Positions 3,103 to 4,840 of a stretch of 64,000 nucleotides of DNA are shown here, one piece after another; the first letter of the stretch is position 1, and the number at the start of each line of letters is the position of its first letter. The translations under genes and the position numbers were made by a program. The notes under the pieces are model-generated. The model made no database searches, was not told the DNA's origin, and saw nothing but the letters and a program-made list of their open reading frames with translations. Source of the DNA: Clostridiales bacterium (GTDB taxonomy: Bacteria; Bacillota; Clostridia; Oscillospirales; CAG-272); NCBI GenBank assembly GCA_022800625.1, contig JAAWQR010000006.1:1-64000 (forward strand), read 5' to 3'.

Positions 3103-4827
3103 ATGAAATCAGAAATCAAAGATAACCGAAAATTTGCGATCTACTCCCGCAAATCAAAGTTTACAGGCAAAGGTGAAAGTATCGAAAACCAAATTGAACT
3201 CTGCCGACAGTACATTCGTCTGCACAATCCCGATGTTCGGGAAAGCGACATTTTGATTTACGAGGACGAGGGGTTTTCAGGTGGAAACACCAACCGTCCC
3301 AAATTCAAAGAAATGATGTCGAAAATCAAAGCCAATCAGATTCAGGCGGTCGTCTGTTACCGACTTGACAGAATCAGCCGTAATGTCGCGGATTTTTCAC
3401 TGATGTATCAGGTATTCGACGATATGAACGTTTCGTTTTTGTCCGTCAGCGAGCGGTACGATACTTCCACTCCGTCAGGCAGAGCAATGCTCAGTATGTG
3501 CACCGTCTTTGCTCAGATGGAGCGGGAAACGATTGCCGAACGTATCAAGGATAATATGCACGAGCTTGCCAAATCGGGCAGATGGCTGGGCGGTACGACT
3601 CCGACAGGATACAAAAGCACGCAGATTGTAGGAAGCGTAACGGTTGACGGGAAAGAGCGCAAGGCGTATAAACTGGATATTGTAAAAGCTGAAGCCGAGC
3701 TTGTGAAAGGGATTTTTGAAAAATTTCTTGAAACCAATTCACTGACCAAAACCGAAACCTATTTGCTTCAAAAACATATCAAAACCAAAAACGGCAAAGA
3801 TTTTACCAGATTTTCCATCCGTTCAATTTTAGCCAATCCCGTTTATATGATTGCCGACGCACAGGCATGGAATTATTTTGAATCAATGGGCGTTGAAATT
3901 TATGCGGACAAATCGGATTTTGACGGTAAGCATGGCGTAATCGCTTACAGCAAAACCATTCAAAAACCTGGCAAGGCAAATCAGATTAAGGACATGAACG
4001 AATGGATTATTGCTGTCGGAAAGCATGAAGGCTTGATTTCGGGCAGGGATTGGGTAAACGCGCAAGCCTCGTTAAAACAAAATCGCTCCAAATCCTATCA
4101 CAAGCCGAGAAGCAACGTAGCCTTATTGTCTGGACTGCTTTTCTGCGGAAAATGCGGAGATTTCATGCGTCCGAAACTGTCGCAGAGATTGAACAAAGAC
4201 GGAGAACAAATCTATTCCTACCTTTGTCAGACCAAAGAAAAAAGCCGCCGACAGAATTGCGACGGCAAGAATCCAAACGGAAACGAGCTTGACAGAATGG
4301 TTTGCGAACAAATCAAGCTACTGTCCCAAAATCATTCCGCATTCATCAAAGGCTTAGCCACCGTAAAACGGGAATTTGAAGCAAGCAGAGAAGATTTTAA
4401 CGAACGTCTGCTTCATCTCCAAAAAGAACAGCAGGATAACGAAAAGCAAATCAACGCATTAGTAACCGCGCTATCCAAGTCGGACGGTACGGCAGCATTC
4501 GATTACATCACAAATCAAATCAACGAACTGCACAGCAAAAACGACGGTATCAAAAAGCAGATTGCGGATATAGAAAGCGTGTCGAATCAATACAGCTATT
4601 CGGACAGCGAATTTGAAATCTTAAAAGACCTGCTTGTTTCCTTCGGTAAATCGTTTGATACCATGTCGGTAGAACAGAAAAGATCTGCGCTTCGCACCTT
4701 TATCCGCAGAATCGTATGGGACGGTGAAAACGCTCATGTATTGCTTTTCGGAGACAGCGAGGAGAACATTGATATAAGCAGTTTTACAGAGCAAAATGTA
4801 GAGCCGTTGGGAGCGGATAGCGAATGA
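3103..4827 (+). CDS. Large serine recombinase (resolvase + recombinase + zinc-ribbon + coiled-coil), probable sigK intervening-element recombinase (SpoIVCA-like)
   Basis: 'AIYSRKSKFTGKGESIENQIELCRQYI', 'YRLDRISRNVADF', 'FAQMERETIAERIKDNM', zinc ribbon 'LLFCGKCGDFMRP…CDGK'; stop codon TGA 4825-4827 lies within the sigK-like codons. Confidence 0.95.
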   Translation: MKSEIKDNRKFAIYSRKSKFTGKGESIENQIELCRQYIRLHNPDVRESDILIYEDEGFSGGNTNRPKFKEMMSKIKANQIQAVVCYRLDRISRNVADFSLMYQVFDDMNVSFLSVSERYDTSTPSGRAMLSMCTVFAQMERETIAERIKDNMHELAKSGRWLGGTTPTGYKSTQIVGSVTVDGKERKAYKLDIVKAEAELVKGIFEKFLETNSLTKTETYLLQKHIKTKNGKDFTRFSIRSILANPVYMIADAQAWNYFESMGVEIYADKSDFDGKHGVIAYSKTIQKPGKANQIKDMNEWIIAVGKHEGLISGRDWVNAQASLKQNRSKSYHKPRSNVALLSGLLFCGKCGDFMRPKLSQRLNKDGEQIYSYLCQTKEKSRRQNCDGKNPNGNELDRMVCEQIKLLSQNHSAFIKGLATVKREFEASREDFNERLLHLQKEQQDNEKQINALVTALSKSDGTAAFDYITNQINELHSKNDGIKKQIADIESVSNQYSYSDSEFEILKDLLVSFGKSFDTMSVEQKRSALRTFIRRIVWDGENAHVLLFGDSEENIDISSFTEQNVEPLGADSE

Positions 4828-4840
4828 AATCCTGATGTTT
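4820..4840 (+). other. Predicted recombination (att) half-site at the sigK junction
   Basis: AATGAAATCCTGATGTTTTTC reads N-E-I-L-M-F-F in the sigma-K frame; AATGA (4823-4827) equals the crossover core remembered for the B. subtilis skin element and overlaps the recombinase stop codon. Confidence 0.65.

Follow-up and report, generated by a model that had tools for sequence, protein, structure and literature searches.

A recombinase gene that takes its stop codon from sigK in a skin-type element of Clostridia

A skin-type element appears to interrupt sigK in the genome of a Clostridiales bacterium (GenBank GCA_022800625.1), and its right end opens the stretch of DNA that we analyzed, the first 64,000 nucleotides of contig JAAWQR010000006.1 (the window). 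We think it likely, with a probability of roughly 0.8, that the large serine recombinase (LSR) encoded at this end recombines at an AA dinucleotide, that excision restores SigK, and that it yields a fusion of the LSR with an XRE-type helix-turn-helix (HTH) protein on the excised circle. Comparison of the sequences revealed the two halves of sigK, a predicted attP site centered on AA, a recombinase TGA borrowed from sigK, a reading frame that continues across attP, and the mark of purifying selection on the join.

The LSR gene lies at the end of the element, as is typical of skin-type elements, and a domain search found its domain set complete (Table 1). Across the 55 contigs of the genome we found one C-terminal sigma-K half, in the window, and one N-terminal half, on contig C54 (profile match 14390-14698); an intact sigK was not found. 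No overlap was detected between contigs C54 and C51 at their ends, which leaves the middle of the element unassembled. We infer that the parts on C54 and in the window belong to one element because their sigK halves are complementary and because relatives with the same layout occur on single contigs (G176, G299, L198, L205, L210, L224, L225, and L234). The part on C54 also carries a 373-aa ORF (L009:5403-6524; C54:15402-16523) that matches PHROG 10226, a phage family without assigned function (E 7e-52).

Table 1. Features of the predicted sigK-intervening element (positions are those of the window unless a contig is named)
Feature	Position	Strand	Remarks
sigK-intervening element, right-hand part	1..4822	.	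from the sigK halves
sigK-intervening element, left-hand part	contig C54, 14683 to contig end 16929
ORF of 133 aa, within the element	286..687	-
ORF of 543 aa, within the element	804..2435	-	lipoprotein-like N-terminus; no family match
XRE-type HTH regulator, upstream of the recombinase	2565..2942	+	HTH_3, E 2e-14
Large serine recombinase (LSR), 574 aa	3103..4827	+	Resolvase, Recombinase, and Zn_ribbon_recom domains
attP left arm (here in attR), GAGCCGTTGGGAGCGGATAGCG	4801..4822	+	encodes the recombinase tail EPLGADSE
AA, predicted crossover dinucleotide	4823..4824	+	in common with the left end, C54 14681-14682
TGA, the recombinase stop codon	4825..4827	+	built of sigK bases (AAT-GAA)
sigK 3' half	4823..5188	+

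The earlier note on this DNA had advised looking for a matching core at the other half of sigK. That half is present on C54 but lacks a second AATGA. What stands at the left end is CAAAAACC (CAA AAA CCA ATC C); the N-terminal half finishes GGA GCG AAG TGT ATA CAA AA and is followed by ACC AATCCGC across the predicted crossover, and an intact sigK from the same genus reads YGAKCIQNEILM over the join region. In register, the two ends have only AA in common, at the Asn codon of sigK. Rejoining the halves at this AA gave a SigK that was 81% identical to the intact SigK of a congener over 228 aa, scored 271.9 bits against PRK05803 (cut-off, 252), and carried CIQNEILM across the join, as intact congeners do. 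The rejoined protein fell below the TIGR02846 cut-off (298.65), as did the intact SigK of congeners. Removal of the element is therefore predicted to restore an in-frame SigK, the hallmark of a skin-type element. Two other short stretches that the ends have in common, ATA and AATCC, were rejected as crossover registers for this genome; they would give CIANEILM or CIQKPILM where congeners have CIQNEILM. A further genome (G014) has an intact sigK plus a sigK 3' half with the recombinase tail of the element (G014:C18:98044-98394 and G014:C9:30432-31070), possibly the result of mixed strains or of a duplicate.

We joined the two ends of 43 elements for which both were known to obtain their predicted attP sites. 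Each was an inverted repeat whose best center of symmetry was AA (43/43), with a mean arm match of 0.67 at this position versus 0.16-0.34 at 12 other centers, and attB had no such center. The attP consensus is GAGCCGttagGtGAGgATAGCa-AA-TGCTATcCTATCATAACGGCTC, and the 46-bp attP predicted for the present element lies wholly within an open reading frame. Two elements, L191 and L209, have the same left arm with TT replacing AA and are inserted in reverse. The arrangement, known from these two cases, is what one would expect were polarity set by the dinucleotide alone.

On the predicted circle, the LSR frame stays open for 206 further codons, running into an ORF for a double-HTH (XRE) protein at the other end of the element (Pfam HTH_3 and HTH_31). 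The left arm of attP encodes the LSR tail and the right arm the head of the XRE protein (TNPLITAL...), and with attP inside an ORF, integration is predicted to alter the C-terminus of the LSR. Among elements with a known left end (for G123 the left end alone is known), an XRE ORF starting at the core was present in 26 distinct elements, in the LSR frame in every one. In L176, the LSR and the XRE ORF are both frame-shifted, by matching amounts, so the fusion frame is kept. Of 14 pairs compared between the core and codon 45, 13 had a pN/pS of 0.13-0.60 when read in the LSR frame; the remaining pair, L188/L194, has only 7 differences. Values in the two other frames were usually higher. By this measure purifying selection acts on the LSR-XRE join. 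An order-wide search of 394 genomes detected the XRE family in 17, nearly always directly at a sigK attL; the same ORF had one weak HTH match among plasmids and none among phages. Against PDB sequences, the HTH regions alone matched (SinR and similar proteins), leaving the head of about 75 aa with no known relative in PDB. Two IMG/VR contigs (L377 and L378, about 3920-4609) carry an attL-type XRE ORF with upstream sequence that is not recognizably sigK, which perhaps marks another insertion site.

The alternative that survives best accepts the AA core and the borrowed TGA as real and denies a function to the join. While the element is integrated, the XRE protein would be made separately, from a start that lies either within sigK or deeper in the ORF, and the continuous frame would be a remnant of an ancestral gene. 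We regard this as unlikely, if the strongest of the competing explanations. Some elements have a GTG or ATG in sigK four codons upstream of the core; the present one has a GTG there, so its XRE ORF might be translated without the LSR. The ORF is also absent from many elements: at least 17 have no in-frame form, their extensions being mostly 0-42 aa, and the fusion is thus not essential for this type of element. G096, L168, and L219 have a broken XRE part. Against independent translation, an in-frame stop lies directly upstream, with no start in sigK, in L160, L163, L167, L181, L188, L190, L194, and L216; the first in-frame start of L163 comes 49 codons in, yet the head is conserved, and in L176 the matching shifts preserve the frame.

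The codons of sigK read AAT-GAA-ATC-CTG-ATG at 4823-4837, and the TGA of the recombinase gene falls inside the AATGA that opens the sigK 3' half, both as the earlier note had placed them. Its view that the recombinase gene terminates within its own att site also stands, the same Asn-Glu codons serving both sides. The codons that it gave for the recombinase end, GCG-AA-TGA, need correction to GAT-AGC-GAA-TGA (D-S-E-stop), with the TGA where it was said to be. From its position relative to AA, the TGA belongs to sigK and is predicted to lie outside the core, so excision would return it to sigK and strip it from the recombinase. Excision had been expected to regenerate both the sigK codons and the recombinase stop. 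The rejoined SigK agrees with the first; the second is not supported here, the TGA lying on the sigK (attB) side. Only for some relatives, those with AATGA at the left end (L205, L208, L210, L214, and L224), do we predict that the recombinase regains a stop.

Collection scans yielded 73 sigK-junction loci with the recombinase present, and in 54 of them the LSR stop is exactly the sigK TGA, which argues that the overlap is not due to chance; relatives within the same family have it as well. Eleven loci have AAC-GA or a similar AAC codon in sigK, and in 10 of these the LSR, in its usual frame, runs on for 9-103 codons. Which codon the host uses thus determines where the integrated LSR ends. An attP site at the 3' end of an integrase gene is a common arrangement, and the overlap of stop and att site could be a mere by-product of it, with no effect on the LSR. 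That recombinases with and without the exact TGA persist, those of AAC hosts among them, is in keeping with this reading and indicates that the C-terminal tail of the LSR tolerates change. The reading leaves the conserved in-frame XRE ORF beyond attP unexplained, and we judge it somewhat less probable than separate translation of the XRE protein.

Another possibility is that the element is dead, with sigK broken in this genome and excision no longer taking place. The genome is a draft with the element spread over two contigs, the joined form was not found, and the left core, AAAAC, departs from the AATGC of most relatives. On the other side, the LSR, a small ORF resembling a recombination directionality factor (RDF), and both sigK halves are intact, L157, L158, L160, and L161 likewise have a left core of the AAAC type, and the rejoined SigK keeps its close identity to that of the congener; we consider a dead element improbable. 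The AATGA core that the earlier note gave for Bacillus subtilis, which if present at both ends would regenerate both frames on excision, is so improbable here that we set it aside, for although the five relatives with a left AATGA have it at both ends, most relatives have AATGC, the left end AAAAC (AAAACC) of the present element leaves AA alone in common, and the symmetry of attP is centered on AA.

We searched for the product of excision. There was no circle or attP sequence in the assembly of this genome and no match to the attP pattern in 394 genomes of the order, and the two short-pattern and two longer-pattern matches in IMG/VR all lay in unrelated phage genes. Excision and the fusion protein therefore remain unobserved.

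Under our preferred reading, the LSR would recombine attL with attR at AA in the Asn codon of sigK (AA|T GAA). As long as the element is integrated, the LSR would end at the sigK TGA. A small directionality factor, whose expression in the mother cell probably depends on sigma-E and SpoIIID, would make the LSR excise the element during sporulation; sigK would recover its reading frame and its TGA, and the circle would carry the LSR-XRE fusion, of roughly 780 aa. A candidate for this factor is a family of RDF-like ORFs of 57-73 aa, usually on the opposite strand, that is present in 33 of the element loci that we inspected; that of the present element lies at C54 about 16576-16752 (E 2e-26 to the family model). 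ATA-N14-17-CATA occurs upstream of 23 of the 33 homologues, with a mean of 3 in shuffles, counts that are not independent given the relatedness of the homologues, and a GGACA-type element often lies between ATA and CATA. By analogy with CD1234 of Clostridioides difficile (PMC5025042), the motif may be a sigma-E/SpoIIID promoter.

The two forms of the LSR most likely differ in activity, so that the state of integration would set the form of the recombinase: the short form would act on the chromosome, and the fused form would be restrained or redirected on the circle. Our suggestion that the LSR's own reaction sets its form, with the switch between forms making excision unidirectional or tuning integration in a new host, is tentative, at a little below even odds. 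The directionality of serine recombinases is usually attributed to a separate directionality factor. If the suggestion is true, recombination rewrites the recombinase itself, with integration adding a host stop codon and excision swapping in a DNA-binding extension of 200 aa. The architecture is present at sigK in many Clostridia, among them the cultured Massilioclostridium coli, host of locus L158, and such a self-modifying switch would be directly testable in sporulation.

The nearest arrangement is the skin element of C. difficile, which likewise splits sigK, has an LSR gene (CD1231) just upstream of the 3' part of sigK, and has a small RDF, the 72-aa CD1234, under sigma-E/SpoIIID control (PMC5025042); its removal restores sigK. 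It measures about 14 kb (PMC4430133), compared with 2.7-7.3 kb for the complete elements measured here. Unlike the present element, it comes with no description, in the portions of these sources at hand, of an LSR stop supplied by sigK or of an XRE fusion spanning attP; an earlier description of LSR genes that end inside sigK may have been overlooked. The skin element of B. subtilis also intervenes in sigK and encodes an LSR (SpoIVCA) and a 64-aa RDF (Skr), but it is described as a defective prophage, and its attB and the C. difficile one occupy different regions of sigK (PMC6957869). In gerE of Bacillus cereus ATCC10987, the gin element is a nonphage gene-intervening element with an LSR (GirC) and an RDF (GirX), for which an AA central dinucleotide and a symmetric attP have been predicted (PMC5595907), in agreement with the AA-centered symmetry found here. 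It differs in its target gene and in a 9-bp consensus at the join, and the portions of that source at hand describe no overlap of LSR and att frames. The closest functional parallel, and a functional one only, is the integration-dependent immunity of mycobacteriophage BPs, in which attP lies within an ORF, integration truncates the protein, and the two forms differ (PMC4557955). The split gene of BPs is the repressor, whose truncated form lacks 33 residues, whereas here a recombinase would be joined to a double-HTH protein.

sigK genes split at the same junction also occur elsewhere in the family. Using an alignment of the sigK-linked recombinases to scan species genomes of GTDB, we obtained 80 loci with identities of 51-69%; almost every one adjoins half a sigK. 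Among the named hosts are Massilioclostridium, Sporomusa, Lacrimispora, Flavonifractor, Faecalibacterium, Oscillibacter, Ructibacterium, and Clostridium viride. Gut Clostridia thus commonly have elements that intervene in sigK, and these are often small. The smallest complete one found, that of Clostridium sp. HBUAS56010 (L225), spans 2,654 bp from core to core and holds the LSR gene, an RDF-like ORF, and one further ORF.

Other elements carry recognizable cargo. Those of Lacrimispora have a gene for a nickel-dependent hydrogenase large subunit (L205:4335-5708; PF00374, E 2e-96), and L210 and L234 have ORFs similar to it. Genes for carbohydrate-active proteins, namely, GH39-like, sialic-acid acetylesterase (SASA), and alpha-galactosidase, are found at L146:5488-6819, L147:5362-6702, and L224:3567-4871. 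Finally, two IMG/VR contigs (L237 and L238) have the same type of recombinase next to a sigK 3' half, so elements of this kind have been counted among viruses.
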